From Streptomyces sp. MST-110588 (GTDB lineage: Bacteria > Actinomycetota > Actinomycetes > Streptomycetales > Streptomycetaceae), in contig NZ_CP074380.1 in the NCBI RefSeq assembly GCF_022695595.1, forward strand, positions 7,592,501 to 7,656,500: a stretch of 64,000 nt of DNA, read 5' to 3'. This document shows positions 17,827 through 37,972 of the stretch, piece by piece. The position numbers and the translations under genes were made by a program. The notes beneath the pieces were generated by a model. That model saw only the letters and a program-made list of their open reading frames with translations. It was not told the origin of the DNA and made no database searches. Every line of letters begins with the position of its first letter. Positions within the stretch are counted from its first letter, which is position 1.

Positions 17827-17843
17827 TCACCCACGGCGGATGA
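17827..17843. promoter_or_regulatory. TCACC-N7-GGTGA box (one mismatch)
   Basis: TCACC-CACGGCG-GATGA, a one-mismatch copy of the 17-bp palindrome that recurs across this island. It ends 34 bp before the ATG at 17878, which also supports that start over the GTG at 17737. Confidence 0.45.
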
Positions 17844-17877
17844 CGCGTGCCGCGCCGTGCGGCGCTGTGATGCGGGC

Positions 17878-18489
17878 ATGGGTGCAGACCGCGCCGCCGA
17901 AGGCCCGCTGGCAGCGGTCCTGTTGACCGGGCCCCGGCTGGCCCTGGGCGCCGTGGCCGCCGTGGGGACGGCGGCGACCACGGCTGCCGTACGGGTCGCG
18001 GAGGGCGTCCGCGGCGCCCGGCGTGCCGTGCTGCGGCGGCTGGTCGCCGCGGTCGTCGGCGAACTGGACGTGGATGCCGTGGTGGCCCGGGTGGATGTGA
18101 ACAAGGTGGCGGAGCGGGTGGACGTCGACCGGGTCGCCGACCGCGTCGACGTGGCGCGCGTCACGCGCCGGGTGGACATCGACGCCGTACTGGACCGGAT
18201 CGACCTGGTGAGCCTGACCCGGCAGGTGCTTGAGGAGATCGACCTCGGCAGAATCGTCCGGGACACGGGCGGCGACATGACCGGCGAGGTGCTGGACGCC
18301 GTACGGCTGCGCAGCGCGCGGGCGGACCGGCTGGTGGACGCCGTCACCGACCGGCTGCTCCGTCGGAACAAGGACGTTGTACTCCGTGACGTGACCGTTG
18401 AGGAGCCACGGGCCGGGCGTCCGGGCGCCGACGGACAGGCGGCCGGCGGACAGGCGGCCGGCGGCCCGGCCGGACGGGCGTCCCCGTGA
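17878..18489 (+). CDS. Unknown protein with six nonapeptide repeats
   Basis: A 203-residue product. After an Ala/Val-rich helix (about residues 11-60) come six consecutive nine-residue units (63-116): LDVDAVVAR, VDVNKVAER, VDVDRVADR, VDVARVTRR, VDIDAVLDR, IDLVSLTRQ. The regular VDV-x-x-V-x-x-R pattern suggests a solenoid or amphipathic surface. A Gly/Ala-rich tail ends the protein. Actinobacteria often encode such a protein directly before an RDD protein; its function is unknown. The stop overlaps the RDD gene start as GTGA, so the pair is co-translated. The start at ATG 17878 is favoured by the regulatory box just upstream. Confidence 0.65.
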   Translation: MGADRAAEGPLAAVLLTGPRLALGAVAAVGTAATTAAVRVAEGVRGARRAVLRRLVAAVVGELDVDAVVARVDVNKVAERVDVDRVADRVDVARVTRRVDIDAVLDRIDLVSLTRQVLEEIDLGRIVRDTGGDMTGEVLDAVRLRSARADRLVDAVTDRLLRRNKDVVLRDVTVEEPRAGRPGADGQAAGGQAAGGPAGRASP

Positions 18490-18971
18490 GGCCGTCCGCC
18501 GCCGTGACCGGCCCGTCCCGCCTTCAGGGCCGGGCCGCGGGGCTGGTCTCCCGCACCCTGACGGCCATCACCGACATGCTCGTCGTGCTCGGCATCGCCG
18601 TACTGGCGGATCTGGGCATCGGCGCCGTCCGCTTCTTCGTCCTGGGACCGCCGTTCGCCCCGCCGAAGCCGTCGGACTGGCTGACCGGCCTCTGGGGTTT
18701 CGCCCTGGCCGTCGTCTACCTGGCCGTGAGCTGGTCGGTGACCGGACGGACCGCCGGCGGCTGTTGGATGGGGCTGCGCGTGGTCCACCGGTCGGGGCGG
18801 CAGCTCGGGCCCGGCCGCGCTCTGCTCAGGGCCGTGCTGTGCGTCATGTTTCCCCTGGGGCTGCTCTGGGTGCCGTTGAGCAGGCGTGACGCGTCCGTCG
18901 CCGATGTCCTCGCGCAGAGCGCGGTGGTGTACGACTGGTACGGCCGACGGGCCCGCGACGGCACGCCGTGA
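18486..18971 (+). CDS. RDD-family membrane protein
   Basis: A 161-residue protein with the RDD layout: an Arg/Asp-bearing first helix (GLVSRTLTAITDMLVVLG, about residues 19-36), a second helix (about 69-87), then GRTAGGCWMGLRVV and WVPLSRRDASVADVLAQSAVVYDW. RDD proteins are small integral membrane proteins, some linked to ion or osmolyte transport; no substrate can be named. It is translationally coupled (GTGA) to the nonapeptide-repeat gene. Confidence 0.85.
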   Translation: MRPSAAVTGPSRLQGRAAGLVSRTLTAITDMLVVLGIAVLADLGIGAVRFFVLGPPFAPPKPSDWLTGLWGFALAVVYLAVSWSVTGRTAGGCWMGLRVVHRSGRQLGPGRALLRAVLCVMFPLGLLWVPLSRRDASVADVLAQSAVVYDWYGRRARDGTP

Positions 18972-19100
18972 CGGCCGGCCGGTGACCACGGCCGCGAGGC
19001 GAGAGGTGACGGGGCCTGCCGCTGTGGGGTGCGCAAGGAGCGGCGGGCGGAAGGCGCGCTGCCCGGTCCGACCGCTGCCCGGTCCGCCGGTGCCGACGGC

Positions 19101-20504
19101 TCAGTGCGCTTTCACCTGCCGCGGGAGCAGCATGGCGGCGAGGAAGCCGCCGCAGCCGACGGCCGCCAGCACCGCCAGCGCGGCAGCGTAGGAGCCCACG
19201 GCCAGGTCGGCGACGAGGATGGTGCCGGCGATCGCCGTACCCATGGAGGATCCGAGGTTGGACACGCTGCGCGACAGGCCGGAGATCTCACCCTGCTGCT
19301 CCTCGGGGAAGCTGGACTGCACGATGTTCACCGACGGGGTCAGCATCACCCCGAGCCCCAGGCCGATCAGGAGCAGCCCGGGTGTGCTCGCCCACGCGTC
19401 CGGTGAGCCGCCCGCCATGGCCAGGAGTGTGGCGATGCCGGCGACCGTCACGGCGAAGCCGGTCATGACCAGGGTGCGCGGTGTACGGCGCTTGGCGAAG
19501 CGTTCGGCGGCGAGCGAGGACGCCAGCAGCCCCGCGGTGGCCGCCGTGAAGATCACTCCCGTCCGGATCGCATCGTAGCCGCGTACCACCTGGAGATAGG
19601 CGGCCACCACGAACGAGACCCCCATCAGGATCAGCCACTGGAGATTCTGCGTGAGCAGACCGAGGTTGGAGGTGCGATCACGGAACAGGCCCGTCGAGAG
19701 CAGCGGTTCGGCCCCCGAGCGCTCCATGGCCCGTACCCGGCGGAAGAACCAGGCCAGTACGGCGGCCCCGAGCACGAGCAGCCCCGCCATCAGCCAGGCG
19801 TTGTCGTCGGCGGCCAGGATGCCGGCGACGAGGAGGACCAGTCCGACGGCCGACAGGATCGCCCCGCCGGTGTCGAAGGTCCGCGTGGGGTCCGGGGGCA
19901 GCGGATCGGCGATCCGGCGGCTCAGTACGACGATCACCGTGACCACCAGTGCCTGGAAGATGAACGCCGCCCGCCAGCTCAGCCCCGAGGTGATCAGCCC
20001 GCCGATCAGCGGCCCGGCAGCCGCGCCGATGCCGCCCATCGCCATGATCGCCCCGAACGCGCGGGCGCGGGCGGTGAGGTCCGTGAAGTACAGCGTGGTG
20101 AGGATGTAGACCGGCGGGATGAGCAGTGCCGTCCCCACGCCTTCGAGGATCGAGTTGCCGAGGATCAGTACGCCCAGGCCCGGCGCCGCCGCGCTGAGCA
20201 GGGCGCCGACGCCGTAGACGGCAAGGCCGGTCACCAGGCACCGCTTGCGGCCGAGGCGGTCGGTCAGCTTCCCGCCGGGGATCATCAAAGCGGCCATGAC
20301 CAGCAGGAAGATGGTGATCGCGAGCTGCACGCCCTGCACGGTGGTGTCGAGGTCCGCGCTGATGTCGTTGATCATCACGTTCATGTTGGAGCCGGCGAAG
20401 CTGCAGATGAACTGTGCGAGCGCGAGCGGCACCAGCACCTGCCGTGGTGTGCTCACCGCGTGTTTACGGGTTCCCGGTCCGGCGGGAGTGGGCGGTACTG
20501 CCAT
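19101..20504 (-). CDS. MFS drug/solute exporter, DHA2 (14-TM) type
   Basis: A 467-residue transporter with about 14 membrane helices. The loop-2 motif GGKLTDRLGRKRC (about residues 77-89) and motif C-like GGIGAAAGPLIGG in helix 5 are typical of proton-coupled drug exporters. The substrate is unknown. It converges with the RDD gene and diverges from the DUF7144 gene at 20722; the palindrome at 20625-20641 lies about 120 bp upstream of its start and could affect both. Confidence 0.88.
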   Translation of the reverse strand: MAVPPTPAGPGTRKHAVSTPRQVLVPLALAQFICSFAGSNMNVMINDISADLDTTVQGVQLAITIFLLVMAALMIPGGKLTDRLGRKRCLVTGLAVYGVGALLSAAAPGLGVLILGNSILEGVGTALLIPPVYILTTLYFTDLTARARAFGAIMAMGGIGAAAGPLIGGLITSGLSWRAAFIFQALVVTVIVVLSRRIADPLPPDPTRTFDTGGAILSAVGLVLLVAGILAADDNAWLMAGLLVLGAAVLAWFFRRVRAMERSGAEPLLSTGLFRDRTSNLGLLTQNLQWLILMGVSFVVAAYLQVVRGYDAIRTGVIFTAATAGLLASSLAAERFAKRRTPRTLVMTGFAVTVAGIATLLAMAGGSPDAWASTPGLLLIGLGLGVMLTPSVNIVQSSFPEEQQGEISGLSRSVSNLGSSMGTAIAGTILVADLAVGSYAAALAVLAAVGCGGFLAAMLLPRQVKAH

Positions 20505-20624
20505 CGTCGCGCCTTTCGATCGCTGCCGTCGGGCGTACGGCGCGGACCCTGTCGTCCGGCGTACGGCACCAAACCGCCGCCCGCCGGGCGCCGTTCATCC
20601 TCGCGGCCAGGTGATCGCGCGTCG

Positions 20625-20641
20625 TCACCCTCCGGGGGTGA
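20625..20641. promoter_or_regulatory. TCACC-N7-GGTGA box (exact, extended)
   Basis: TCACC-CTCCGGG-GGTGA, with symmetry extending outward (GCGTCG before, CGACGC after), making this the most extended copy. It lies 80 bp upstream of the DUF7144 gene in the divergent region with the MFS gene. Confidence 0.6.
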
Positions 20642-20721
20642 CGACGCGCCCGCGCGCCCGGAGCATCCTCGGCGCCGACGCGGGGGCAATCCGCACCCGC
20701 CTCGGACACGGAGGGCCTGCC

Positions 20722-21144
20722 ATGGCCACCACGACCAGCCCGCACCACCGCTCGGCAGGAGTCAGCGCCGCCGCCAGCGGCCTGACGATCTTCGCCGCCG
20801 TGATGCTGCTCATCTCCGGTGTGCTCGACCTCTTCCGGGGCATCATGGGCATCGCCGAGAACGAGGTCTTCCTCAACACCCCCAACTACGTGTTCAAGTT
20901 CGACCTGACGGCCTGGGGGTGGATCCACCTGGCCTTCGGGGCGGTCGCCATCGCCGTGGGCCTGGGCCTGTTCACGGCGGCCACCTGGGCCCGGGTGCTC
21001 GCGATCGGCATCGCGGCACTGCTGATCATCGTCAACTTCCTCTCCATCCCCTACTACCCGGTCTGGTCGATCACGCTGATCGCGCTGTACGGGGTCACCA
21101 TCTGGGCCCTGTGCATCGTCCGCCGGGACACCCTCAACGAGTAG
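20722..21144 (+). CDS. DUF7144-family four-helix membrane protein (copy 1)
   Basis: A 140-residue integral membrane protein with four hydrophobic segments and the conserved LTAWGWIHLAFGAVAIAVG and IPYYPVWSITLIALYGVTIW blocks. The family is common in Streptomyces stress loci; its function is unknown. GGAGGG lies 8-13 bp before the ATG. A paralogue lies at 33595 with the matching GWGWIQLITG and TPYYPVWS blocks, and both have the same palindrome upstream. Confidence 0.8.
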   Translation: MATTTSPHHRSAGVSAAASGLTIFAAVMLLISGVLDLFRGIMGIAENEVFLNTPNYVFKFDLTAWGWIHLAFGAVAIAVGLGLFTAATWARVLAIGIAALLIIVNFLSIPYYPVWSITLIALYGVTIWALCIVRRDTLNE

Positions 21145-21354
21145 CCGGGCCGGGCCCGTGCCGGACCGGGCGGTGCGCACGGCACAGGAGTGCGCCGGGC
21201 GGATCGCGCAACTCATCACTCCCCTGCGGGTGCGGCCGGGGCCGGAGAGCGACCTGGGCCACAACTCCGGCCCCGGCCACCGCGCGGGCACCCGCCGGCG
21301 TCCGCCGGACCGGACCGTGACCAGCACCTCTGGTACCGGCCCGGCGCCCGCGCC

Positions 21355-23151
21355 ATGGTGAGGGTGCGCGACGCGGCGCCCGGTCTCCGTATGCTCTCAA
21401 GCTACCGGCGGCAGTGGCTCGTCAAGGACGTCGTCGCCGGAGTCGTCCTGACCACGCTGCTGGTGCCGCAGGGAATGGCGTACGCGGAGCTGGCGGGCCT
21501 GCCCGCGATCAACGGCCTGTACACCTCCGTCCTGTGCCTGCTGGCGTACGCCCTCTTCGGACCGTCACGGATCCTGGTGCTCGGCCCGGACTCCTCGCTG
21601 GGCCCGATGATCGCCGCGACGGTGCTGCCGCTGGTCGCCGCCGGAGGTGAGACCGAACGGGCGGTGGCGCTCGCCTCGGTGCTGGCGCTGCTGGCCGGTG
21701 CCGTCATGGTCCTGGCGAGCGTGGCCAAGCTCGGCTTCATCGCCGACCTGATCTCCAAGCCCACCATGACCGGCTACATGAACGGTCTGGCGCTGACCAT
21801 TCTCATCGGGCAGTTGCCGAAGCTGTGCGGCTTCTCCACGGACGCCGACGGGCTGCTCGGCGAGGTCCGCGCATTCCTCCGCGGCCTGGCCGACGGACAG
21901 GCGGTGCCCGCCGCCCTCGCGGTCGGCGCGGGCGGGGCCGTGCTGATCCTGGTACTCCAGCGGTGGCTGCCGAAAGTGCCGGCGGTGCTCGTCATGGTGC
22001 TGCTGGCCATCGCTTCGGCCTCCCTGTTCCACCTGGCCGACCACGGCGTCGGCCTGGTCGGCACCCTGCCCACGGGCTTCCCGCCGCCGACCGTGCCGCA
22101 CATCGCCTGGAAGGACCTCGGTCCCTTGTGCGTGGGAGCGATGAGCATCGCGCTGGTGTCCTTGGCCGACACCATCTCCAACGCCTCGGCGTTCGCGGCC
22201 CGCACCGGGCAGGAGGTCCAGGGAAACAAGGAGATGAGCGCGATCGGTGCCGCGAACCTGGCGGCGGGGCTGTTCCAGGGCTTCCCCGTCAGTACCAGCG
22301 GCTCACGGACAGCGGTGGCCGAGCGGGCGGGTGCCCGGACCCAGCTCACCGGGATCGTCGGGGCGGCGCTGATCGTCCTCATGCTGGTGCTTCTCCCGGG
22401 GCTGTTCCGCAATCTGCCCCAGCCCGCGCTGGCCGCGGTGGTCATCACGGCCGCGCTGTCCCTGGCCGACATCACGGGGACGGTACGGCTGTGGCGGCGG
22501 CGCAAGGCGGAGTTCCTGCTGTCGGTCGCGGCCTTCCTCGGGGTGGCGCTGCTCGGCGTGCTCCCCGGCATCGTGGTCGCGGTGGGTCTGTCGATCCTCA
22601 ACGTCTTCCGGCGCGCGTGGTGGCCGTACAGCACCGTGCTGGGCCGGGTGCCGGGCTTGGAGGGTTACCACGACGTCCGTTCCTACCCCGGTGCCGGGCA
22701 GCTCCCCGGCCTGGTGATCCACCGGTTCGACGCGCCGTTGTTCTTCGCCAACGCCGTGACCTTCCGGGAGGAGGTGCTGCGACTGGCCCGCGCGGAGCCG
22801 CCGCCCCGGTGGGTCCTGCTGGCCGCCGAGCCCGTGACCGACGTGGACACCACCGCGGCCGACGTACTGGAGGAACTCGACCGGGCGCTCGGCGTCCGGG
22901 GCGTCAGGCTGGTCTTCGCCGAACTCAAGGACCCGGTGCTGCGCATGATCGACCGGTACGGGCTGACCCATGTCTTCGGCAGCGACCGGTTCTTCCCCAC
23001 CGTCGAATCCGCCGTCGCCGCGTTCCGGGCCGGGACCGGCGCGGACTGGACCACGGGCGGACCGCGTCCTGACGCCGCCGGCCCGGACGGCAGCGGCAGC
23101 CCACCACCACGGGCGGAAGGCCGACACGACGCCTCGGCACCGCCGTCCTAG
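21355..23151 (+). CDS. SulP-family inorganic anion transporter with STAS domain
   Basis: A 598-residue SLC26/SulP transporter. The membrane domain (about residues 10-425) includes LLVPQGMAYAELAGLPAINGLY in the first helices and the FPVSTSGSRTAVAERAGARTQ segment. A C-terminal STAS domain (about 465-560) with DVDTTAADVLEEL follows. The family moves sulfate, bicarbonate or other anions; the substrate is not readable. The ATG at 21355 or the GTG at 21358 is the start; upstream sequence in frame is not transporter-like. Confidence 0.88.
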   Translation: MVRVRDAAPGLRMLSSYRRQWLVKDVVAGVVLTTLLVPQGMAYAELAGLPAINGLYTSVLCLLAYALFGPSRILVLGPDSSLGPMIAATVLPLVAAGGETERAVALASVLALLAGAVMVLASVAKLGFIADLISKPTMTGYMNGLALTILIGQLPKLCGFSTDADGLLGEVRAFLRGLADGQAVPAALAVGAGGAVLILVLQRWLPKVPAVLVMVLLAIASASLFHLADHGVGLVGTLPTGFPPPTVPHIAWKDLGPLCVGAMSIALVSLADTISNASAFAARTGQEVQGNKEMSAIGAANLAAGLFQGFPVSTSGSRTAVAERAGARTQLTGIVGAALIVLMLVLLPGLFRNLPQPALAAVVITAALSLADITGTVRLWRRRKAEFLLSVAAFLGVALLGVLPGIVVAVGLSILNVFRRAWWPYSTVLGRVPGLEGYHDVRSYPGAGQLPGLVIHRFDAPLFFANAVTFREEVLRLARAEPPPRWVLLAAEPVTDVDTTAADVLEELDRALGVRGVRLVFAELKDPVLRMIDRYGLTHVFGSDRFFPTVESAVAAFRAGTGADWTTGGPRPDAAGPDGSGSPPPRAEGRHDASAPPS

Positions 23152-23274
23152 TCCGGGGGCGTCCTGGGACCAGTTCGGACAGTACGACAGTACGGTACGG
23201 AGGGATGGGCGCCCGGCCCGGCGCGAGCGTTCGCGCTCGGCGCCGGACCGGCCATCGAGTTCGCCGGTCTCTTC

Positions 23275-24758: not shown

Positions 24759-24762
<4 letters not shown>
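23275..24762 (-). CDS. GH13 (alpha-amylase family) glycosidase
   Basis: A 495-residue cytosolic (beta/alpha)8-barrel enzyme with no signal peptide. The catalytic triad is visible: nucleophile Asp216 in GVRCDMAM, acid/base Glu262 in FVAEAYWD and transition-state Asp318 in LENHDE. DYVPNHV is the conserved region I. A C-terminal beta-sandwich follows. Its ATG overlaps the stop of the upstream GH63-like gene (ATGA), so the two are co-translated and probably act on the same alpha-glucan or glucoside pool. Confidence 0.88.
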
Positions 24763-27448
<2,686 letters not shown>

Positions 27449-27485
27449 GTCTGCCTCCCCGCCCGCCGCCCTGCCTGCCGCGGGC

Positions 27486-28907
27486 TCACCCGGCTCCAGG
27501 CTGGGCACCCGTACCGGACGCCGCCTCACCTGGCCCGGGTGAGGAGCCGTCGCGCACCGCGAGCGTGACCGCGGCCTCGTACACCGCCAGTACGACCGCG
27601 GTCACCAGCAGACTCGTCCACGAGGAGAGCAGCAGCGCGACCAGGGCCGCGACGATCACACCGGCGACCCGCAGCACGTCGGCGTGTCCGCGCATCCACG
27701 TCCGCAACTCACTCCCCTTGGGAACCCGCCGGCCCGCGCGTACGGCGAACCGGCCGACGGCCCGGGCGCCCCGGGAGGTGTGACGGCGCAGACCGACGGG
27801 CAGCCGGCCGGGGCCCACCAGGTACATCAGCAGGGCCAGGACGACACCGATCCACAGCAGTTGGGCGCCGCGGTCGCGCAGCGTCGTGAAAATCGTCCAC
27901 AGCGCCTGCTGTACGCCGTCCCGGTACACGCCGGATGGCACCTGGGACAGGAGCTGGTTCCGTACCGCCCGCAGCACCCCGAAGAGCGCGGTGACCCCGA
28001 TCACGAGCCACAGGCCCAACTGGAGCAGGGTGCGCCGGCGGTCGGGGGAGACCCACAGGGCGAGGCCGAGCAGCAGCGGCGTGGCGATCAGCAGCGCCAC
28101 CAGGCCGCGCTTGACCGCGAGCACGCCCTGCTGCAACTGCCCGAGCCGGTGCCGGTTGTAGAGCGTGATCTGCCCGAAGTCCTCGGGCAGCGAGACACCG
28201 AGCGCCTTTTCGATCCGGTCGTGCAGCTTGGGCGGGATCTGGCCGGAGGTGACCTCGGGCAGGTCCAGCCGCTTGCCGAACAGGGTGGGGAGCTTGTCCT
28301 CCAGGGCGTTGAGCGCGTTGTTGACCAGGGGGAGCAGGTTGAGGGTCACCGTGTCGCCCTGCACGCGCACGCCCGTGCTGCGCCGCTCCAGCACCGCGGT
28401 GATCCGCTCGTGCGCCAAGCGGTGGGCGGCGCGCCACAGGGACTGGAACTGCTCCGTCGCCAGCAGCTTGGACACCGTGTCGTGTACGTAGCCGTGGACG
28501 GCCTCGGTGACCGGCGCCGCGACGAACGAGGCGCGCGGCGGCAGCGCGTCGGACAGCCGCTTCTGGACGTCGAGCCGGTCGAAGATCTCATCCGTGAGGT
28601 AGGTGGAGACCGCCGCGTTCACGGCCGGGTCCTGTGGCAGCGGCCCCACCGTGGCGACCCAGCGGTCCGTGTTGAGCGCGGTCCGCGCGCCCCATACGCC
28701 GACGACCGTGGTGACCGTGAGCACGGCCACCAGGGCGATCACCACGGCGGCGGCCAGGCGCCGCACGGCCAGGAGCCGGGCCCGGCGCCGTCTGTCCGTA
28801 CCGGCACGGTCCCGTAGCTCGCGGACCTCCGCCCGCAGGCGCTCCAGTTCGCTTGCGGGCGCGGAGCCGCCGGCCGTGCCCTCGTCCGCCGTTTCCTCAC
28901 GGGCCAT
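27486..28907 (-). CDS. Polytopic membrane protein of unknown function with large extracytoplasmic domain
   Basis: A 473-residue protein. A short N-terminal coiled coil ([17 protein letters not shown], about residues 19-35) precedes a first membrane helix (about 47-72), then a soluble region of about 190 residues, and four more helices in the C-terminal half. This arrangement matches a family of actinobacterial integral membrane proteins with no assigned role. GGAGGTG precedes the ATG at 28907. It is upstream of the GH63/GH13 pair on the same strand with a 37-bp gap and could be in the same transcript, although a palindrome inside its 3' end (27526-27542) may give the glycosidases their own promoter. 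Confidence 0.72.
27526..27542. promoter_or_regulatory. TCACC-N7-GGTGA box (exact), inside upstream gene
   Basis: TCACC-TGGCCCG-GGTGA lies in the last codons of the membrane-protein gene and 77 bp upstream of the GH63-like start, consistent with an internal promoter for the glycosidase pair. Confidence 0.5.
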
Positions 28908-28954
28908 GACACACCTCCGCCGCCCACCGTCGCGTGACCCGCGCCGTGCGGCCC

Positions 28955-28971
28955 TCACCTGCGGCGGGTGA
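28955..28971. promoter_or_regulatory. TCACC-N7-GGTGA box (exact), divergent region
   Basis: TCACC-TGCGGCG-GGTGA, identical over 17 bp and its immediate flanks to the copy at 33484. It sits between the membrane protein (start 28907, 47 bp away) and the small gene at 29042 (70 bp away), so it can serve both directions. Confidence 0.6.
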
Positions 28972-29041: not shown

Positions 29042-29251
29042 GTGGTCATGACCGGACCGGTAAACCTGCTGACGACCGCGTTCGGCACCGGCACGGATTC
29101 CGCGGGCCGGATCGTCCAGGAGCCGGACCTCCTGGAGGCACTCACTCCCGTGGTCGTGGCAGCCACGGCCGCTGTGGGGCGGCTGGGCGAGCCGGCCGCT
29201 TCCCTGCCCACACCAGGCCGGGCGACCGGCCGACTCGCAAGGAGGCTCTGA
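29042..29251 (+). CDS. Small unknown protein upstream of DUF1269
   Basis: A 69-residue product read from GTG 29042 (an ATG at 29048 is also possible), with GGGAGG 5-10 bp upstream. It contains ALTPVVVAATAAVGRLGEPA, an Ala/Val-rich segment. Its stop TGA shares one base with the ATG of the DUF1269 gene, which supports real, coupled translation. No family is recognised. Confidence 0.45.
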   Translation: MVMTGPVNLLTTAFGTGTDSAGRIVQEPDLLEALTPVVVAATAAVGRLGEPAASLPTPGRATGRLARRL

Positions 29252-29736: not shown

Positions 29737-29759
29737 CGTATCGCGCTCGGCGCCGGATT

Positions 29760-29788
29760 TCACCCGGGTGAGAACTTCACCCGGGTGA
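29760..29788. promoter_or_regulatory. Two tandem 12-bp palindromes TCACCCGGGTGA
   Basis: TCACCCGGGTGA occurs at 29760-29771 and again at 29777-29788, with first bases exactly 17 bp apart. The half-sites match those of the TCACC-N7-GGTGA boxes, but with a 2-bp spacer. They lie 89 bp upstream of the LuxR gene, suggesting autoregulation or cross-control within the same regulon. Confidence 0.5.
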
Positions 29789-29877
29789 AACGGCGTCGGT
29801 GGCGCTGCCCATGTCACCTCGCCCGTCCCACACTTGCCGCAGCCGCACTCTCCCGCTTCGAGAGCGAGGTGCCGCCC

Positions 29878-32163
29878 ATGGACAGGTGTCCGAAGGAGCG
29901 CGGTGACGGACTCTCGCCCGCGCCCGGGACCACGGTGCCCGCGCTGCCGAGGTGGCTGGTCCCCAGGCCCCGGCTGACGGACCGGATCTCCCAGGGCGTC
30001 CTGGGGCCGCTGACCGTGGTCGTCGGCCCGGTGGGCGCCGGGAAGTCGGCGCTCGCCGTGGAATGGGCGCACACCGGGCGGGCGCCGGGGCCGGTGGCCT
30101 GGGTGACCTGTGACGGCCGCGACGAGCGGCCCGACGTCCTGTGGCCGCGAGTGATCAGCGCGCTGGTCACCGCCGGCACGGACGTGCCGCCGTCCGCGGC
30201 GGCGTCCTGCGGTCCGCCGCTGGTGGCCGGTCTGACGGCCGCACTGACCGCACGGCAGGACCCGGTGGTCCTGGTCCTGGACGACTTCCAGACGGAGCCG
30301 GGTTCGCCGACCGCCGACAGCGTGATCGGTCTGCTCAAACACGCGGCTCCCGTGCTGCGCCTGGTGGTGCTCTCGCGCCGCGACCCGCCGCTGCACCTGC
30401 ACCGGTTCCGGCTGTCCGGTGAACTCACCGAACTGCGCACCGCAGACCTCGCCTTCGACGACCGGGAGACGGCCGCGCTGCTCGCACAGCACGGCATCGA
30501 GGTGTCCAAGCAGGTGGTGGGCGCTTTGCGCAAGCGCGCGGACGGATGGGCCGCGGGCCTGCGCTTCGCGGCCATGTCCATGGAGAAGCAGCCGTCTCCG
30601 GAGAAGTTCGTGGCGCAGTTCGCCGGTGACGACGAGACGGTCGTCAGCTATCTCGTGGAGGAGGTCCTGGACGTACAGCCCCCGGGGATGCGGCGGTTGC
30701 TGCTGACGACGAGCGTCCTGGACCACATGAACGCCGAACTGGCCGCGGAACTCGCGGGCGCGGAGGCGGGGGGCCACTTCGCGGAGCTGGTGCGGGGGAA
30801 CTCCTTCCTCCAGCCCGCCGGTCATGGCTGGTACCGCTGCCACCGGATGTTCGCCGACGTGCTGCGGACGCGCCTGCGCCACGAGACACCGGCACTGGTC
30901 CCCGAACTCCACCGCCGGGCCGCCGCCTGGCTGGGCCGGCACGGGCTGCTCGCCGACGCGGTACGGCACTGGCTCAAGGCCGGCGAGCCCACGCGCGCCG
31001 GCCGCCTGATCGTCGGCCGGCTGGCGATCGGCCAGGTCCTGGGGCTGACCGAGCCCCGCCTGCCGGACGACCTGGTCCGGCAGTTGTCCCAGGTGGCCGA
31101 GGCGGGCGAGCCGGAACCCGCGCTCGTCGCCGCGGCCTCGGCCCTGGCCCACGGTGACGAGGCGGCCTGCGCGGACTCGCTGGCCCGGGCCGGGCGGCTC
31201 GCCGGGGAACTGCCGGCGGACCAGGAGGACCGCGTCACCGGCTGCCGTCTGACGCATGCCGTGATCCGCATGGCCCAGCAGCGCTCCCGGCTACCGGATG
31301 CCGCGCGGTCCGCGGCGGCCGAGGCGGAGGCCCTGTGCTCGCGGCTGACGCGGGCGACGCTGACGGCGCATCCCGAGATCCCGGCCCTCACCCTGGCGAT
31401 CCGCGGCCACGGCGAACTGCGCGACGGCGCTCTCCAGGCCGCCGCGGTCTCCCTGGCCGCGGGCCTCAAAGCCGCCTGCGCCGCGGGCAACGGCGTGCTG
31501 CGCCGGGACTGCCTGGTCGAACTCGCGCTGCTGGAGGTGTTGCGCGGGCGCTTCCGCGCCGCCGACGAACTCGTCACGCTCGCCTCCCAGCCGCCCCTGC
31601 CGACGTGGACCGCGACCGACCGCTCCCGGTCCTCGCTGCACGTCGTACGGGCCTGGGTCGGCCTGGCCCGCGGCGAGCGCGCGCAGGCCCACCGCGAGCT
31701 CGGGTGCACGCGTACCGCGCTGAACCTCACCCCCGATCCGTTCGTCGCCGAACTCTGCTCCCTGGCGGCCGAGCTGGCCAAGGCCGCGGAGCGCGGCGGG
31801 CCGCTGTCCGGCCGGATCGGTGACGCCGTGGCCGGCTGTCACCTGCCCACGGGGCTGCTGCGGACGGTGGAGCCGGTGTGCGCGGCCGTGCTCGACTCGT
31901 CCGCCGGCTCGCGTACGCAGATCTTGGCGCGTCCCGCGCCGCCCCCCATGAACCCCGGCCCCGCTCCGGTCGAGCGGCTCAGCGCGCGGGAGCGGGAGGT
32001 GCTCGGCCGGCTCGCGCAGATGATGACGACCGAGGAGATCGCCACGGACCTGTACCTGTCGGTGAACACGGTCAAGACGCACCTGAAGAGCGTCTACCGC
32101 AAGCTGGCCGTCTCCCGGCGGTCGGCCGCGGTCCGGCGGGCCCGTGAGCTGGAACTGCTGTGA
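29878..32163 (+). CDS. LuxR-family regulator of the large ATP-binding (MalT/LAL) type
   Basis: A 761-residue regulator. A P-loop NTPase domain comes first with Walker A GPVGAGKS (residues 50-57) and Walker B-like VVLVLDDFQ (near 128), followed by the MalT-type sequence VLSRRDPPL, a long helical repeat region, and a C-terminal LuxR helix-turn-helix (LSAREREVLGRLAQMMTTEE ... VNTVKTHLKSVYRKLAV). Such proteins act as ATP-dependent, ligand-sensing activators. The ATG at 29878 is preferred because the earlier in-frame GTG at 29785 lies within the palindromes. It is the best candidate in the island for a box-binding regulator. Confidence 0.85.
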   Translation: MDRCPKERGDGLSPAPGTTVPALPRWLVPRPRLTDRISQGVLGPLTVVVGPVGAGKSALAVEWAHTGRAPGPVAWVTCDGRDERPDVLWPRVISALVTAGTDVPPSAAASCGPPLVAGLTAALTARQDPVVLVLDDFQTEPGSPTADSVIGLLKHAAPVLRLVVLSRRDPPLHLHRFRLSGELTELRTADLAFDDRETAALLAQHGIEVSKQVVGALRKRADGWAAGLRFAAMSMEKQPSPEKFVAQFAGDDETVVSYLVEEVLDVQPPGMRRLLLTTSVLDHMNAELAAELAGAEAGGHFAELVRGNSFLQPAGHGWYRCHRMFADVLRTRLRHETPALVPELHRRAAAWLGRHGLLADAVRHWLKAGEPTRAGRLIVGRLAIGQVLGLTEPRLPDDLVRQLSQVAEAGEPEPALVAAASALAHGDEAACADSLARAGRLAGELPADQEDRVTGCRLTHAVIRMAQQRSRLPDAARSAAAEAEALCSRLTRATLTAHPEIPALTLAIRGHGELRDGALQAAAVSLAAGLKAACAAGNGVLRRDCLVELALLEVLRGRFRAADELVTLASQPPLPTWTATDRSRSSLHVVRAWVGLARGERAQAHRELGCTRTALNLTPDPFVAELCSLAAELAKAAERGGPLSGRIGDAVAGCHLPTGLLRTVEPVCAAVLDSSAGSRTQILARPAPPPMNPGPAPVERLSAREREVLGRLAQMMTTEEIATDLYLSVNTVKTHLKSVYRKLAVSRRSAAVRRARELELL

Positions 32164-32241
32164 GTAAGTGACCGGTGACCGCCCACCGGGCCGGCCCGCC
32201 GGGGACAGGGCGGTGGAATCTCCGGTTCCGGCGCCGTCCAT

Positions 32242-32476
32242 TCATGCGAGCCGACCGGGCCGGTAGTTCCCCGCGGGCTGCCGGACGATCACATTCATCC
32301 GGTTGAAGGCGTTGATCAGCAGGCCGCACCCGTTGATCTGACTCGCGCGGATCTTGACCAGTTCCTGCGTGGCGGCCGGCAGCGTGGAAGTCCGAGACCA
32401 CCTGTGCCGCCGAGATGACGTGCTTGAGGACCGTGCCCGCGGTCGGGCTGTCGAAAAGTTTCAGCCGGGCATCCAT
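32242..32476 (-). pseudogene. Carboxymuconolactone decarboxylase/AhpD-like remnant
   Basis: A good GAAGGAG site precedes the ATG at 32476, and the product opens MDARLKLFDSPTAGTVLKHV, the standard start of Streptomyces AhpD-like proteins. After VVSD the frame slips; the next frame reads LPAATQELVKIRASQINGCG and then jumps directly to INAFNRMNVIVR and a stop. The CxxC/His active-site segment and most of the middle are missing. So the gene has both a frameshift and an internal deletion and cannot be functional. Confidence 0.75.
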
Positions 32477-32575
32477 CGTGTGCTCCTTCGCTGTTGTCGA
32501 GGGCTCACACGTATGACGGAAGGGACCGGCGCGATGTGACGCGGCCCGCGGCGAGGTACGTCCGGTCCGCGGGCG

Positions 32576-33058
32576 CTACCGGATGAGCCCGTGCTGCCGG
32601 GCCCGGTGCAGCGCCTCGGCCCTGGAGTGGGCACCGAGCTTGCGGTACACCGCGCGCGTATGGCTCTTGACGGTGTTGTACGACACGAACAGGTCATCGG
32701 CGATCCGCCGCAGCGGAACCCCCTCCTGGAGGTGCCGCAGCACGGTCAGTTCGCGGTTGGTCAGCGGCTCGGCCGACGCCCTCGGGCCCGGTGCGCCCCG
32801 GCGCTGCCGGGGCACCGCGGCCCGTACCACCGACATCCTGTCCACCAGGGTGTCCGCGAGCCGCGGATCGCCCAGCTCTTCCGCGATCTCCACCAGGATG
32901 TCGGCGATCCACACCAGACAGGCCGAGACGGCCGGGTCCGCCGCCACGGCCTCGCGGCCCCGTTCCCGTAACCGTCCGTACAGGTCGGGCGCCCGGCCGG
33001 TCTCCCACGGACCGGCCGGAGCCCGGCTCCTTCGCGGGGTAGGACGCGCGGCGAGCAT
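32576..33058 (-). CDS. Short LuxR-type HTH regulator
   Basis: A 160-residue protein ending in a LuxR/NarL helix-turn-helix (LTNRELTVLRHLQEGVPLRR ... VSYNTVKSHTRAVYRKLGA, about residues 98-155). The N-terminal 95 residues are helical (DPAVSACLVWIADILVEIAE) and have no receiver or P-loop, so it resembles the C-terminal third of a MalT-like regulator made as a separate protein. GGGAGGTGAGGAC precedes the ATG. It could bind the island's palindromes alone or compete with the large LuxR protein at 29878; that is inference. Confidence 0.75.
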   Translation of the reverse strand: MLAARPTPRRSRAPAGPWETGRAPDLYGRLRERGREAVAADPAVSACLVWIADILVEIAEELGDPRLADTLVDRMSVVRAAVPRQRRGAPGPRASAEPLTNRELTVLRHLQEGVPLRRIADDLFVSYNTVKSHTRAVYRKLGAHSRAEALHRARQHGLIR

Positions 33059-33127
33059 GTCCTCACCTCCCGGCGGCAGGCGGTAGACACCCAGCGTCGC
33101 GTGGGCGGCCCGGTGCCGGAAGGGGGC

Positions 33128-33421
33128 TTACGGCCCTTCGGGGCCGGCGCTCCCTCCGCCGGCCCCGGCCGCCCCGGGCAGTCGCCGGACCTCCAGCAGT
33201 TCCAGCCCCAGTGCCTGGATGCGGTCGAGGATGCCGTACAGCGCGGCCTGGTCGAGACCGGCTCCGTACAGCACCGTCTCGGCCGGGCACAGCCGGACCG
33301 TCAGCTCGCCGAAAGCCGACGCCAGAGCAGTACCGACTCTGCCCCGGACCCGTATCTCGAAATCGCTGCCGCCAAACGGTGTTCCCGCTCGCTCGTGCCC
33401 TGCGCCCGCCTGTGCGCCCAT
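33128..33421 (-). CDS. Small conserved actinobacterial protein of unknown function
   Basis: A 97-residue protein with FEIRVRGRVGTALASAFGEL and DQAALYGILDRIQALGLELL, a stand-alone alpha/beta domain that recurs in Streptomyces stress loci. I know it only as hypothetical. The start at ATG 33421 has GGAGGTGACGCC directly upstream. The palindrome at 33484-33500 lies about 60 bp upstream of its start, and it diverges from the second DUF7144 gene. Confidence 0.65.
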   Translation of the reverse strand: MGAQAGAGHERAGTPFGGSDFEIRVRGRVGTALASAFGELTVRLCPAETVLYGAGLDQAALYGILDRIQALGLELLEVRRLPGAAGAGGGSAGPEGP

Positions 33422-33483
33422 GGCGTCACCTCCTGCGGCGGCCTGGCTTCCCCGCCATTCTCGCCGGGCGGCGCCGGACGGCC

Positions 33484-33538
33484 TCACCTGCGGCGGGTGA
33501 CGTGCGCGCGCACCGGTGCGTTCTCATCCTGTCCGGGT
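33484..33538. promoter_or_regulatory. Pair of TCACC-N7-GGTGA boxes (one exact, one with one mismatch)
   Basis: Exact copy TCACC-TGCGGCG-GGTGA at 33484-33500 and one-mismatch copy TCATC-CTGTCCG-GGTGA at 33522-33538, 38 bp apart centre to centre, between the divergent small gene (33421) and DUF7144 copy 2 (33595). The second ends 56 bp from the DUF7144 start. Confidence 0.6.
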
Positions 33539-33594
33539 GAACCGGCGCGGGCCCGCGGGGGAATGCTCCGGCCCACCGAGGAGGAGGTGCAGGC

Positions 33595-34059
33595 ATGGCT
33601 GAGCAGACTTCGGCGGGAGGGACAGGACACAGCCGACAGGGTGTGTCCGAGCCACGCATTCGCCCGGTCGCGATCGGCGGCGTCGTGTTCGCCGTGTGCA
33701 TCATGGGCATCATCGGGGCCTACCACGCGATTGCGGGGCTCGCCGCGATCATCGACCACAACTTCTACCGCTCGCAGCAGAACTACGCGTACGACTTCAG
33801 CATCAGCGGGTGGGGATGGATCCAGTTGATCACCGGCATCGTCGTCGTCGCGGCGGCGTTCCAGATCTTCAGCGGACGCACCTGGGCGCGCGCCGTCGGC
33901 ATCGCGGTCGCGGTGATCAGCGCGCTGGAGAACTTCTTCTTCACCCCGTACTACCCCGTGTGGTCGGCGATCGTCATCGCGCTCGACGTCCTGGTGATCT
34001 GGTCCCTGGCCACCTACGGCCACCGGGAGGCCCACAAGGTCTACAACGCGCCGCTGTAG
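33595..34059 (+). CDS. DUF7144-family four-helix membrane protein (copy 2)
   Basis: A 154-residue paralogue of the protein at 20722, with four hydrophobic segments, ISGWGWIQLITGIVVVAAAF and TPYYPVWSAIVIALDVLVIW. It has a longer polar N-terminus (about 20 residues). GAGGAGG lies 8 bp before the ATG. Function unknown; placed in the same putative regulon by two upstream boxes. Confidence 0.8.
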   Translation: MAEQTSAGGTGHSRQGVSEPRIRPVAIGGVVFAVCIMGIIGAYHAIAGLAAIIDHNFYRSQQNYAYDFSISGWGWIQLITGIVVVAAAFQIFSGRTWARAVGIAVAVISALENFFFTPYYPVWSAIVIALDVLVIWSLATYGHREAHKVYNAPL

Positions 34060-34163
34060 GGACCTGCCGGCCCCGCGGACGCCGCGCGGGAGCCGGAGAA
34101 GAACCGGAAGAGGTGAACCGGAGGGGCGAGGCCCGCCCGAGCACGGTGGCGTTCCCTATGAAC

Positions 34164-35474
34164 CTATGAACCGCGGGCCGGCCCCAGCCCCAGCCTGAGC
34201 AGGAGGCGCCAGTCCAGCGGCGGGCGGGCCGGGCGCACGCCCGGCCGCCGCCGGGGCACGAGCACCCGCAGGGCCAGCGGTCGCACCTCGCAGCGCACCG
34301 GTACGCGCAGCCGCAGCGCCTCCCCGTCGACGCCGACCGCGATCCGCTCCTGATCGGCGTCGACGACGACATGCCGGGCCGTCACCCGCGTCAGGCCGGC
34401 GGCCCGCCGTCCCCGCACCAGGCCGGCGGCGTGCGCGGCGCTGCTGACCTGGACACCGACGCAGCCCAGCACACCGCTGTCCAGGCGTGCCCGGCGCCCC
34501 AGCCCGGCGATATCACCCAGACCGTAGGGGTTGTTGCTCACCAGCAGGGCCTGCGGGCCGCAGAACGTACGCTCCCCGGCCTGTGCGGTGAGCCGCCCGC
34601 CCTGGTGGCCCATGAGCAGGCCGGGCAGCAGTTCCAGGGTCGTGCGGGTCTTGCCGTCGCGGTAGGACGGACTCTGCACCACTTCGGCGTAGGCACCGAA
34701 GGACACGTTGTTGACGAAGGGCCGCCCGGCCGCCCGGCCGAGGTCGACGCGCAGTTCCACGCCGTCGCGCAGGGCGTCCAGGGCCTTGGACGGGTCCTCG
34801 CGGTCCAGGCCCAGATCCAGGGCGAAGTGGTTGCGCGTACCGGCCGGGATCACCAGGAAGGGCAGGCCGAGACCGGCGGCGACATCGGCGACCAGGGCCT
34901 GTGTGCCGTCCCCGCCCGCGACACCGAGCAGGTCGGCGCCCCCGGCCGCGGCCTTACGGGCCAGCTCCGCCACGTCCGTGACGCCCGGCCCCTCCAGAAG
35001 CAGCACCTCCGCGCCCAGCGCCGCGGCCTTCTCGCGCAGCCCGAACCGGTCCACCTTGCCGCCGCCCGACCGCGGATTCATGATCAGGACCGGGTGGCGG
35101 ACCCGCGGTGCCGGCCGCTCGGGCATCGGGACCGGCCTGTCGTGCAGCACGAGAGCGGCCCGGCCCGCGCCGGCCGCGACCAGCCACAGTCCGCCGGACA
35201 CCGCGACGACCCACGCCAGATGGGCGCCGGTGTACTTCCAGACGACCCACGCCGGGGCGGCCAGCGCCAGGAGGAAGGCCAAGGCCCGCAGGACGCCCCG
35301 CCGGCTCAGGGCCCACCAGAGCGCGGCGGCGGCGACCGCCACACCGAGGAGCCCGACCGCCACCAGGGCGATGGTCCGCAGCCCCGCGAACACCCCCAGC
35401 ACCAGCACCGCCGCGGTGGCGGCGGCCAGTGACGCACGCGCCAGCCACCGCTGCTTCCGCATGGTCGGTTCCAT
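34164..35474 (-). CDS. Diacylglycerol/sphingosine kinase-family enzyme with N-terminal membrane helices
   Basis: A 436-residue protein. Three or four membrane helices occupy about residues 8-105; the DAGK catalytic domain follows with HPVLIMNPRSGGGKVDRFGL and the nucleotide loop GVAGGDGTQAL, then IPAGTRNHFALDLGLD. The family phosphorylates diacylglycerol or related lipids using ATP at the membrane. ATG 35474 is preferred, with a second ATG at 35462. It diverges from DUF2252, and two copies of the island palindrome lie between. Confidence 0.85.
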   Translation of the reverse strand: MEPTMRKQRWLARASLAAATAAVLVLGVFAGLRTIALVAVGLLGVAVAAAALWWALSRRGVLRALAFLLALAAPAWVVWKYTGAHLAWVVAVSGGLWLVAAGAGRAALVLHDRPVPMPERPAPRVRHPVLIMNPRSGGGKVDRFGLREKAAALGAEVLLLEGPGVTDVAELARKAAAGGADLLGVAGGDGTQALVADVAAGLGLPFLVIPAGTRNHFALDLGLDREDPSKALDALRDGVELRVDLGRAAGRPFVNNVSFGAYAEVVQSPSYRDGKTRTTLELLPGLLMGHQGGRLTAQAGERTFCGPQALLVSNNPYGLGDIAGLGRRARLDSGVLGCVGVQVSSAAHAAGLVRGRRAAGLTRVTARHVVVDADQERIAVGVDGEALRLRVPVRCEVRPLALRVLVPRRRPGVRPARPPLDWRLLLRLGLGPARGS

Positions 35475-35508
35475 GCCGCCACCGTGCGCCGGAGCGCCCG
35501 TACAGGCA

Positions 35509-35632
35509 TCACCCGGGCAAGGCGACCCCGGCCGTCCGTACGCACCGGGCCGGGCGGCCACGCGGCGGCGCCGGCACCCCGCCGACGTCTCCTGCGCCCT
35601 GCCCACCCGCCCGCCTCACACCACCGGGGTGA
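35509..35632. promoter_or_regulatory. Two TCACC-N7-GGTGA boxes (one mismatch each)
   Basis: TCACC-CGGGCAA-GGCGA at 35509-35525 is 34 bp upstream of the kinase-like gene; TCACA-CCACCGG-GGTGA at 35616-35632 is 55 bp upstream of DUF2252. Each divergent gene therefore has its own copy, at distances similar to those at DUF7144 copy 2. Confidence 0.5.
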
Positions 35633-35687
35633 TGGCCGGCCCGACCGCACACGCCGAAAGTCGTGCCCTCGAAGAGGGGAGCCCGCC

Positions 35688-37091
35688 ATGTCCGACGCCC
35701 AGCACGCGCACGCCACACCCCAGGAGCGGGCCGCCCGTGGCCGGGCCGCCCGCACCCTCGTACCGCGCTCCCGCCACGCGGAGTTCACTCCCACAACGGA
35801 CCGGCCCGACCCGGTCGCCGTCATCGAGCGGCAGTCGGCGACCAGGCTCCCGGAGCTGGTGCCGATCCGGTACGGGCGGATGCTGCAGTCCCCCTTCCGC
35901 TTCTTCCGCGGCGCCGCCGCCCTCATGGCGGGCGACCTGGCCGGCACGCCGTCCACCGGGCTGCGGGCCCAGTTGTGCGGGGACGCGCACCTGCTGAACT
36001 TCCGGCTGCTCGCCTCCCCGGAACGGCACCTGATGTTCGACATCAACGACTTCGACGAGACACTGCCGGGCCCCTGGGAATGGGACGTCAAGCGGCTGTC
36101 GGCCAGCCTCGTCATCGCCGGCCGCGCCAACGGCTACAGCGGGCCGGAGCGGGCCCGGGTGGTACGGGAGACGGTCCGCGCCTACCGGGAGGCGATGGAC
36201 GGCTTCGCCAAGATGCGCAACCTGGACGTGTGGTACGCGCGGATCGACGCGGACGAGCTGTACGGCGCGCTGAGCGGGGAGTGGGACAAGGAGGCGCAAC
36301 GGCGGATCTCCCGGACCCTGGCCAAGGCCCGCACCCGCGACCACCTCCAAGCCCTGGAGCGGCTCGCCCACGCCGTCGGGGACGAGCTGCGGATCGCCCC
36401 CGACCCGCCGCTGGTCGTGCCGCTCGGCGACCTCCTGCCGGGCGCCGAACGCGAGCAACTGGAACAGCAGTTGCGGGAACTGGTCGAGCGCTACGCGCGG
36501 ACCCTCCAGGCCGACCGGCGGACGCTGCTCACGCAGTACCGCGTGGTCGACATGGCCCGTAAGGTCGTCGGCGTCGGCAGTGTGGGAACCCGCTGCTGGA
36601 TCCTCCTGCTGCTCGGCCGGGACGCCGCCGACCCGCTCTTCCTCCAGGCCAAGGAGGCGCAGGAGTCGGTGCTCGCGCCGTTCGCCGAAACGGGCACCTT
36701 CACCAACCAGGGGGAACGGGTCGTCTTCGGGCAGCGGCTGATGCAGGCGGCCGGCGACATGTTCCTCGGCTGGGAACAGGCCGAGGGCCTGGACGGGCGG
36801 CGGCGCGACTTCTACCTGCGCCAACTGCGCGACTGGAAGGCCATCGCCCGGGTCGACACCATGACGCCCGGCCTCATGCGGCTGTTCGGCCGGCTCTGCG
36901 GCACGACCCTGGCCCGTGCCCACGCCCGGTCCGGCGACCGGATCGCCATCGCCGCCTACCTGGGCCGCTCCGACGCCTTCGACCGCGCGCTGGCGCAGTT
37001 CGCCGAAAGCTACGCCGACCAGAACGAGCGCGACCACCGGGCGCTGGCCGAGGCGGCGCGCACCGGCCGGGTGACGGCGACGTCAGCGTAA
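35688..37091 (+). CDS. DUF2252-family protein (kinase-like fold)
   Basis: A 467-residue cytosolic protein with the family blocks MLQSPFRFFRGAAALMAGDL, LCGDAHLLNFRLLASPERHL and FDINDFDETLPGPWEWDVKR, which carry the DxHxxN-like and DxxDFD-like residues of an aminoglycoside-phosphotransferase fold. The substrate is unknown. GAGGGGAG precedes the ATG. Its 3' end overlaps the convergent YihY gene by 9 bp. Confidence 0.87.
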   Translation: MSDAQHAHATPQERAARGRAARTLVPRSRHAEFTPTTDRPDPVAVIERQSATRLPELVPIRYGRMLQSPFRFFRGAAALMAGDLAGTPSTGLRAQLCGDAHLLNFRLLASPERHLMFDINDFDETLPGPWEWDVKRLSASLVIAGRANGYSGPERARVVRETVRAYREAMDGFAKMRNLDVWYARIDADELYGALSGEWDKEAQRRISRTLAKARTRDHLQALERLAHAVGDELRIAPDPPLVVPLGDLLPGAEREQLEQQLRELVERYARTLQADRRTLLTQYRVVDMARKVVGVGSVGTRCWILLLLGRDAADPLFLQAKEAQESVLAPFAETGTFTNQGERVVFGQRLMQAAGDMFLGWEQAEGLDGRRRDFYLRQLRDWKAIARVDTMTPGLMRLFGRLCGTTLARAHARSGDRIAIAAYLGRSDAFDRALAQFAESYADQNERDHRALAEAARTGRVTATSA

Positions 37092-37889
37092 GGATTCCTC
37101 CGGCACCCCCAGCCGACGGCGCAAAGGCCCGGTATGGGCCAGTACTTGCCCGACGGCGATACCGGACACGACGGTGGCGAAGAAGAGGATCAGCCAGGAC
37201 AACAGCGTGAAGACGGAGCCGAGCTGCCCGTACCGCTCGACGCTGCGGTCCAGCGCGCGCGGCAGCCACAGACCGGAGACCGAGGAGAACGCCACCACGC
37301 CCACACCGGTCAGCAGCGCACCCGGCAGCAACGGCAGCCAGGGCAGACGCCCGGCGAGCAGCAGGTGCTGGGTCCACCACCACATCGCGACGGCGCCGGC
37401 CATCTGGAGAGGTATCCCCAGGCCCGGGCCCGCGCCGAACGCCCGGTGGAGCAGCCCCTGATACAGGAGCGCGGCGATCCAGACCACGAGCCACAGCGCC
37501 CAGCGCCAGGCCACGATCCGCGCCCCCGCGTGCGGCAGGTGCCAGGAACGTTCGCACACCCGCTGGAGGACCCGGGTGAAGGCCGTGGCGGACAGCAGGG
37601 CGACCAGCACACCGACCGCTCCCCAACTGTGCAGTTCCGGGTCCGAGGCCCCATGGGTCAGGTGCGTCTGCGCCAGGACGGAGCTGTCCGCCCCGAACAG
37701 GGAGCGCAGCGAGTTCACCAGCTCCTGCCGCACGGCGTACGGGCAGAAGGACGAGACGGCGATCAGCATCGGCAACGCGGCCAGGAACGCCTGCGCCGCC
37801 AGCCGCGTCGCGAGGTCCAGGATGTTGACGCTCACGAGCTGCCGCACGATACGCCCCGCCAGTGGCCGGGCGAGATCGGTGATCGTCAT
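37083..37889 (-). CDS. YihY/BrkB-family inner-membrane protein
   Basis: A 268-residue protein with six membrane helices and YihY family features (LAAQAFLAALPMLIAVSSF and WLILFFATVVSGIAVGQVLA). Formerly annotated as ribonuclease BN, the family is now regarded as membrane proteins of unclear function, possibly lipid or solute transporters. It is shorter than many homologues (often 290-330 residues). A one-mismatch palindrome lies 66 bp upstream. Confidence 0.82.
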   Translation of the reverse strand: MTITDLARPLAGRIVRQLVSVNILDLATRLAAQAFLAALPMLIAVSSFCPYAVRQELVNSLRSLFGADSSVLAQTHLTHGASDPELHSWGAVGVLVALLSATAFTRVLQRVCERSWHLPHAGARIVAWRWALWLVVWIAALLYQGLLHRAFGAGPGLGIPLQMAGAVAMWWWTQHLLLAGRLPWLPLLPGALLTGVGVVAFSSVSGLWLPRALDRSVERYGQLGSVFTLLSWLILFFATVVSGIAVGQVLAHTGPLRRRLGVPEESLR

Positions 37890-37955
37890 GCTGCTGCCCT
37901 CTCGCGGCAGGGAGAACCGGCCCGGCCAGCCTCACAGTTGTCCACCCGATGCGTG

Positions 37956-37972
37956 TCGCCCGCCGGGGGTGA
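37956..37972. promoter_or_regulatory. TCACC-N7-GGTGA box (one mismatch)
   Basis: TCGCC-CGCCGGG-GGTGA, 66 bp upstream of the YihY start on the minus strand. It is the rightmost copy I find in the window. Confidence 0.45.

Follow-up and report, generated by a model that had tools for sequence, protein, structure and literature searches.

The palindrome and the genes of the island

The stretch of DNA analysed here, referred to below as the window, comprises 64,000 nucleotides (7592501-7656500) of the 7.9-Mb genome of Streptomyces sp. MST-110588 (G000). A 20-kb part of it, the island, carries repeated copies of a 17-bp palindrome with the consensus TCACCY-N5-RGGTGA—the N7 site—which is considered here as the candidate operator of a regulon. 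Genes and coding fractions were taken from a simple gene caller, which assigns about 87% of the island to coding sequence. Four exact copies, at 20625, 27526, 28955 and 33484, and four copies with one mismatch, at 17827, 35509, 35616 and 37956, lie where an initial annotation of this DNA had located them, and the copy reported at 33522-33538 is in fact found at 33524-33540. It was also correctly described there that all island copies but one are situated between genes, since only the copy at 27526 overlaps a called gene.

The inferred target genes are given here together with their sites and, where present, a hexamer of the form NANNNT as the putative -10 element, its distance being counted from the palindrome. 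The site TCACCCACGGCGGATGA (17827-17843, forward strand) lies ahead of gene 17878, the first of two genes (17878-18971, forward) of which the second encodes an RDD-family protein; no NANNNT occurs 18-27 nt downstream of this site, and its GGATGA half is also seen in the related locus L050. The site at 20625-20641 separates an MFS transporter gene (19101-20438, reverse) from a DUF7144 gene (20722-21144, forward), with NANNNT at 22 nt on each side. The site at 27526-27542 (reverse) is positioned in the 3' end of gene 27486-28907 and ahead of the first open reading frame (ORF; start 27448) of a GH63-like gene (24759-27448, reverse), with CAGCCT at 22 nt. This GH63-like gene consists of two overlapping ORFs in different frames, its relative in L141 being a single long ORF, so that either a natural split or a sequencing effect may be involved. 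The site at 28955-28971 precedes the gene for a 473-aa protein without a Pfam match (27486-28907, reverse), with GACGGT at 23 nt; toward the ORF 29048-29251 on the forward strand no fitting NANNNT was found. Two neighbouring sites, at 33484-33500 (reverse) and TCATCCTGTCCGGGTGA at 33524-33540 (forward), precede, respectively, gene X (33128-33421, reverse; GAGAAT at 21 nt) and the second DUF7144 gene (33595-34059, forward; AATGCT at 21 nt). The remaining three are found ahead of a diacylglycerol (DAG) kinase-like gene (34164-35462, reverse; site 35509-35525, reverse; CACGGT at 22 nt), a DUF2252 gene (35688-37091, forward; site TCACACCACCGGGGTGA, 35616-35632, forward; GAAAGT at 23 nt) and a gene for a YihY/BrkB-type membrane protein (37083-37889, reverse; site 37956-37972, reverse; GAGGCT at 22 nt).

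The palindrome is real, non-random and functional-looking. With up to one mismatch allowed, the window contains 12 N7 sites against 2.87 expected, a number reached by none of 100 shuffles, and among convergent exact half-sites with spacers of 0-20 the N7 arrangement occurs five times, every other spacer three times at most. Besides the island copies, the window holds three that the initial annotation had not listed, with one mismatch at 1321 and 57972 and exact at 46417-46433, the last within the ORF 46325-46783 that matches a DUF4096 transposase. Of the 15 exact 17-mers in the whole genome, four are in the island (binomial 5.6e-8, for a region selected post hoc). Concerning the 11 exact copies outside the island, five are within called genes (L004, L005, L008, L009 and L001, the last being weakly called), one overlaps a gene start (L010), two are 88 and 54 bp ahead of a gene (L002 and L007, respectively) and transposase copies account for three (the one at 46417, L003 and L006); the 100 bp preceding the site are identical to the 46417 copy in L003 and 91% identical in L006. 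The copies within transposase genes, at genome positions 816382 and 3854444 and at 46417-46433 of the window, represent background and no promoters. Since the exact hits outside the island are largely in genes or transposases, the bare 17-mer is not a genome-wide marker of upstream regions, and it is the island cluster that stands out.

Conservation upstream of orthologous genes

Related loci were collected by querying contigs with the protein of the second DUF7144 gene (33643-34059), i.e. not by the site itself, which yielded 17 loci (L046-L062), all from Streptomyces and including S. rimosus, S. monomycini and Streptomyces sp. CB02923. N7 sites with at most one mismatch are present in all 17, at 4 to 9 per locus, and they precede the same orthologous genes, often with the individual departures from the consensus retained—TCATCC at DUF7144, TCACAC at DUF2252, TCGCC or TCCCC at the DAG kinase gene, GGGCGA at YihY and GGATGA at the RDD gene—with exceptions among the DUF7144, DAG kinase and YihY sites. 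For the window and these loci taken together, each gene with its start in view was examined for a site (up to one mismatch) within 230 bp. Such a site was found upstream of the second DUF7144 gene in 18/18 cases, the DAG kinase gene in 15/15, GH63 in 14/14, the 473-aa gene in 12/12, DUF2252 in 11/12, YihY in 13/16, MFS in 3/3 and both RDD (2/2) and the first DUF7144 gene (2/2); it is seldom seen ahead of the SulP (2/4), small LuxR (2/16), GH13 (1/15) and DUF1269 (1/15) genes. The spacer is strict, the 17 loci containing 42 exact N7 sites (32 of them with a -10 hexamer) and not a single exact N6 or N8. The boxes are thus clearly conserved ahead of orthologues, as the initial annotation had required of a regulon, most target genes carrying a site in loci selected by protein.

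It should be pointed out that DUF7144 genes were rejected as direct carriers of the site per se, one of the 30 best-matching genus loci having an exact copy no further than about 400 bp away and one more a one-mismatch copy. In regions retrieved later, a SHOCT gene is often located ahead of DUF7144, with the site preceding the SHOCT gene.

Promoter geometry

For the spacing of the -10 hexamer, 96 promoters were assembled by taking the nearest site for each gene and counting DUF7144 cross-matches once. The hexamer NANNNT starts 22 nt after the palindrome in 69 and 23 nt after it in 18 of them (87/96, leaving nine with neither), and no other offset between 0 and 33 nt is represented more than four times; in the window, the gap is 21-23 nt at eight of the nine sites, the exception being 17827. 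If the hexamer is taken as the -10 element (-12 to -7), the palindrome, centred at -43 or -44, would reach from about -51 to about -35. In the six nucleotides directly following the palindrome, at the expected place of a -35 box, T occurs in at most 10 of 92 rows and no TTGACA-like letters were found, in a table that contains repeats. The compound element—the exact site followed by N22 and NANNNT—is present three times in the own genome, each time in the island. The genome-wide test for a preference for upstream regions, suggested by the initial annotation, thus gave a mixed outcome: the bare 17-mer shows no such preference (at least 8 of the 11 copies outside the island in genes or transposases), and with the -10 added all three exact elements fall in the island.

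LuxR-type activators in the class II layout bind at about -42. The arrangement observed here, i.e. a site near -42/-43, a poor -35 region and a fixed -10, corresponds to a class II activated sigma-70 promoter, the dependence on an activator being deduced from the sequence pattern. TCACCY-N5-RGGTGA would accordingly be the operator of a class II activator, the dimer of which, centred near -43, would replace the -35 box and recruit the RNA polymerase to the -10 hexamer starting 22-23 nt downstream; a single palindrome between divergent genes could serve both directions. A dimer occupying -51 to -35 could also block the polymerase, and the palindrome would then be the operator of a repressor; the lack of a recognisable -35 and the tightly fixed distance of the -10 are what would be expected of a promoter in need of an activator, and repression is considered very unlikely. 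As judged from these patterns, the regulon is real and conserved, and probably of the class II type.

The LAL protein as candidate activator

The initial annotation assigned the regulon to one of two LuxR-type proteins of the island, and the larger of the two is the best candidate, on grounds of co-occurrence and linkage, the smaller one being too rare and having a different promoter box. The larger, a LAL of 761 aa (29878-32163, forward), combines an N-terminal ATPase part, with the Walker A motif GPVGAGKS evident from an alignment of LALs, and a C-terminal GerE domain (PF00196, 52.9 bits; cut-off 23.5). The Pfam families AAA_16 and AAA_22 remain below threshold in it, AAA_22 exceeding the cut-off in the relative from L125, and with 218.4 bits it does not reach the cut-off of 537 of the MalT equivalog NF003420. 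In the helix-turn-helix, the segment SVNTVKTHLKS is invariant in 11 LALs, ten of them 38-73% identical to the first; such letters are common in LALs, and the invariance is therefore only consistent with the LAL as reader of the site.

In a sample of 199 genomes of the genus, with LAL relatives called at E<=1e-90 using the commoner form of the LAL as query, the compound pattern (gap of 22 or 23) is present in 147 genomes, often clustered, and LAL relatives in 73. The number of compound sites per genome has a median of 4 in the 73 genomes with the LAL (68 with at least two) and of 1 in the 120 genomes that lack both the LAL and the small LuxR (26 with at least two, 10 with at least three), the one-sided p value of this difference being 1.5e-24 with kinship ignored; the six other genomes, which have the island with the small LuxR protein and include the own one, contain 4, 4, 5, 5, 4 and 1. 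The sites listed for 30 LAL-bearing genomes number 113; the LAL gene is no more than 20 kb away from 62 of them, and 26 of the 30 genomes have at least one site near it. Of twenty regions fetched by their site clusters (L124-L143), 17 have a LAL gene (present only as contig-end fragments in L139 and L142) and all 20 have DUF7144; a SHOCT-type gene and a relative of gene X are each present in 18, and one region (L141) has the small LuxR gene. The three regions that lack a LAL gene come from genomes (G026, G130 and G182) with one elsewhere. As these regions were chosen for their sites, the 56/57 obtained from them is not independent evidence. Concerning the protein-selected loci, L050 and L061 have no island LAL in view, a LAL relative being encoded in the genome of each (38% and 66% identity, respectively).

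An independent check is provided by a class-wide draw made with the LAL protein, from which all six LAL-bearing Streptomyces genomes absent from the genus draw were taken (L174-L179). Exact N7 sites are present in all six regions (3, 4, 2, 2, 2 and 3); each of these 16 sites lies between genes and is followed by NANNNT after 22 or 23 nt, and eight other spacers combined yield four exact sites. The regulon is not limited to the island type seen in the window. The same sites bear on the possibility that the palindromes are due to chance or are structural, i.e. terminators, repeats or remnants of mobile elements. The copy in the transposase ORF at 46417 and the other copies in genes or transposase copies outside the island would agree with such an origin, against which stand the conserved position and the -10 spacing fixed across species of the island sites and the 16/16 in loci not selected by site; this explanation is hardly credible.

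Several observations weigh against the LAL as the activator or against the compound element as its mark. With one mismatch allowed, the compound element is found at 23 places in the genome, 6 in the island and 17 outside (reversed control 7), and among the sites listed 51 of the 113 are away from the LAL gene. At least three compound sites are nevertheless present in ten of the 120 genomes that lack both regulators, and in 20 LAL-negative genomes, comprising these ten and ten others, no LAL was detected at E<=1e-40 in a search run without a positive control. Outside the genus, 17 genomes have weaker LAL relatives, 13 of which were examined (14 loci), and an exact N7 site with a -10 is present in only two of the loci (three sites in L181, one of two in L190). 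Identity between the island LAL and the commoner form is only about 38%, and the own genome (E 3.2e-81) falls below the cut-off that defined the 73 genomes. No N7 site was found at the 12 LAL promoters of the window and its relatives, and MalT, the best-known LAL, uses direct repeats. As for the other loci outside the genus, L189 has one exact site inside a gene, the other 11 have none, and one-mismatch sites with a -10 occur in L188 and L192. The ten exceptional genomes are G032, G055, G066, G088, G118, G139, G152, G163, G165 and G170, the sites being scattered in G032 and G165. A recurring element, TCACC-N7-GGTGACGCCG...GTCTAGCGT, was also observed away from LAL genes (G007, G009, G017, G130, G196 and G197), perhaps another conserved promoter.

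These ten genomes would be understandable if the operator were read by another LuxR/NarL-type regulator encoded elsewhere, such as an orphan response regulator of the BldM kind that is less strict about the spacer, and the BldM Group I site TCACcCgnncGgGTGA has nearly identical half-sites according to PMC4125116. The spacer is, however, strictly 7 in the related loci (42 against none with 6), and the BldM consensus TCACCCGNNCGGGTGA has no exact match in the genome, which carries little weight alone because real BldM sites vary. A genome-wide regulator would, moreover, leave unexplained both the 62 of 113 listed sites beside the LAL gene and the fall of the median to 1 where both candidates are missing (120 genomes); a reader of this kind is judged unlikely. 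The small LuxR protein is a highly improbable activator. It has a GerE domain, is encoded near the sites at 33484 and 33524 and occurs in 15 of the 17 protein-selected loci, but it is present in 8 of the 199 genus genomes, site clusters being found in many more, it was labelled in only one of the 20 site-cluster regions, and L050 retains the sites with no small LuxR gene in view.

A class II activator regulon under the control of the island LAL, with the N7 site as its candidate operator, is thus considered probable, the assignment to this protein resting on co-occurrence, physical linkage and family. The LAL would be switched on by a signal and would then co-activate genes for transport, membrane and glycosidase functions and of the stress type, together with gene X. 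For little-studied genes, such as DUF7144, DUF2252, SHOCT, DUF308/HdeD-like, X and others, which cluster together in many Streptomyces (LAL in 73/199 sampled genomes), this offers an operator, a promoter geometry, a target set and a candidate regulator, and an orphan LAL gains a directly testable candidate site.

The LAL gene itself is preceded by a separate element, a doubled 12-bp palindrome TCACCCGGGTGA (29760-29788). The initial annotation had taken it for a tandem variant of the N7 site; its presence was verified, with the 12-mer at 29760 and 29777, its identity with the N7 site was not. The 12-mer is conserved at LAL promoters, with two copies in the window and in L047 and L048 and one copy in most other relatives, and it occurs five times in the genome, two of these at the LAL promoter. 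The doublet is located about 40 nt upstream of CACACT.

Gene X and the small LuxR protein

Gene X has no Pfam match for its family and is a homologue of 65-aa ferredoxin-like proteins encoded beside LAL genes, with 46% identity over 54 residues. A member of the 65-aa family, P0047, is predicted to adopt a compact beta-alpha-beta-beta-alpha-beta fold (mean pLDDT 92.9); the ferredoxin-like matches obtained for the X family with Foldseek are weak, none of 1151 being at E<=0.001. The family accompanies LAL genes also outside Streptomyces (window, L124-L143 and L180-L189), an X-like gene being labelled in 9 of the 14 LAL loci outside the genus. As a guess, X might be a partner or a feedback signal of the LAL.

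The small LuxR-type protein (32576-33058, reverse) belongs to a group of 43 sequences related at E<=1e-10, all from Streptomyces where the organism is named, and the count of eight genus genomes given above refers to E<=1e-20. It is disfavoured as the regulator since it is too rare and its own promoter carries a different box, AGGGCCGTAAGCCCCC at 33122-33137, an OsdR/DosR-like 16-mer that overlaps the stop codon of gene X and precedes GACGCT by 23 nt. Using a weight matrix of the OsdR type, derived from the 26 sites in Table 1 of PMC5069765, nine of 16 small LuxR promoters contain a match that ranks among the best 0.04% of positions and is followed after 22-24 nt by a -10, and seven do not; by counting mismatches, no signal above random windows was obtained for the OsdR-like box at this promoter. 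An OsdR-type input to the small LuxR gene is possible, as far as these promoter sequences can suggest. A wider scheme, rather doubtful, would be an actinobacterial stress module not described before, in which the ATPase-type LAL reads the 7-3-7 palindrome at -43 and induces a dedicated 65-aa ferredoxin-like partner, X, which feeds back on the LAL, and in which, in the rimosus-type island, a hypoxia (OsdR-like) input enters via the small LuxR gene.

Comparison with known systems

The stress-type genes led to OsdR being considered first. According to PMC5069765, the OsdR/DevR (DosR) regulon resembles the present one in stress-type targets grouped round the regulator and in a 16-bp palindrome, whereas its consensus AGGGCCGATCGGCCCT is unlike the N7 site; owing to this difference from the N7 matrix, OsdR was rejected as a reader of the N7 sites. 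Loose OsdR-type matches (up to 3 mismatches in 14) number 29 among those listed in the window, one of them, at 28940, adjoining an N7 site. A paper on secretion stress and CssRS was also set aside, its matches to the sequence letters being primers only.

The BldM Group I regulon, as presented in PMC4125116, is similar in its half-sites (TCACCc/gGGTGA) and in being activated by a homodimer, that of a response regulator; it differs in a 16-bp site with a centre of 6 and in developmental targets, the N7 site being 17 bp with a centre of 7. A BldM Group I site was rejected here, with no exact N6 in the window or the 17 protein-selected loci and no exact BldM consensus in the genome.

A description of the N7 site or of its LAL regulon was not found in the literature searched, including portions of PMC3498368, PMC8914203, PMC13118837, PMC6637917 and PMC11043171, most subscription papers being outside the scope. 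The kind of system is known, and the LAL/N7 regulon as a system is apparently undescribed. S. coelicolor has 14 putative LALs according to PMC3282765, a paper the text of which does not contain the string 'palindrom'. Concerning the LALs treated there, SCO0877 and SCO7173 are tied to phosphate and actinorhodin genes, in which they differ from the island LAL, whereas both of them and MalT share with it the large size, the ATPase with a Walker A motif and the C-terminal LuxR helix-turn-helix.

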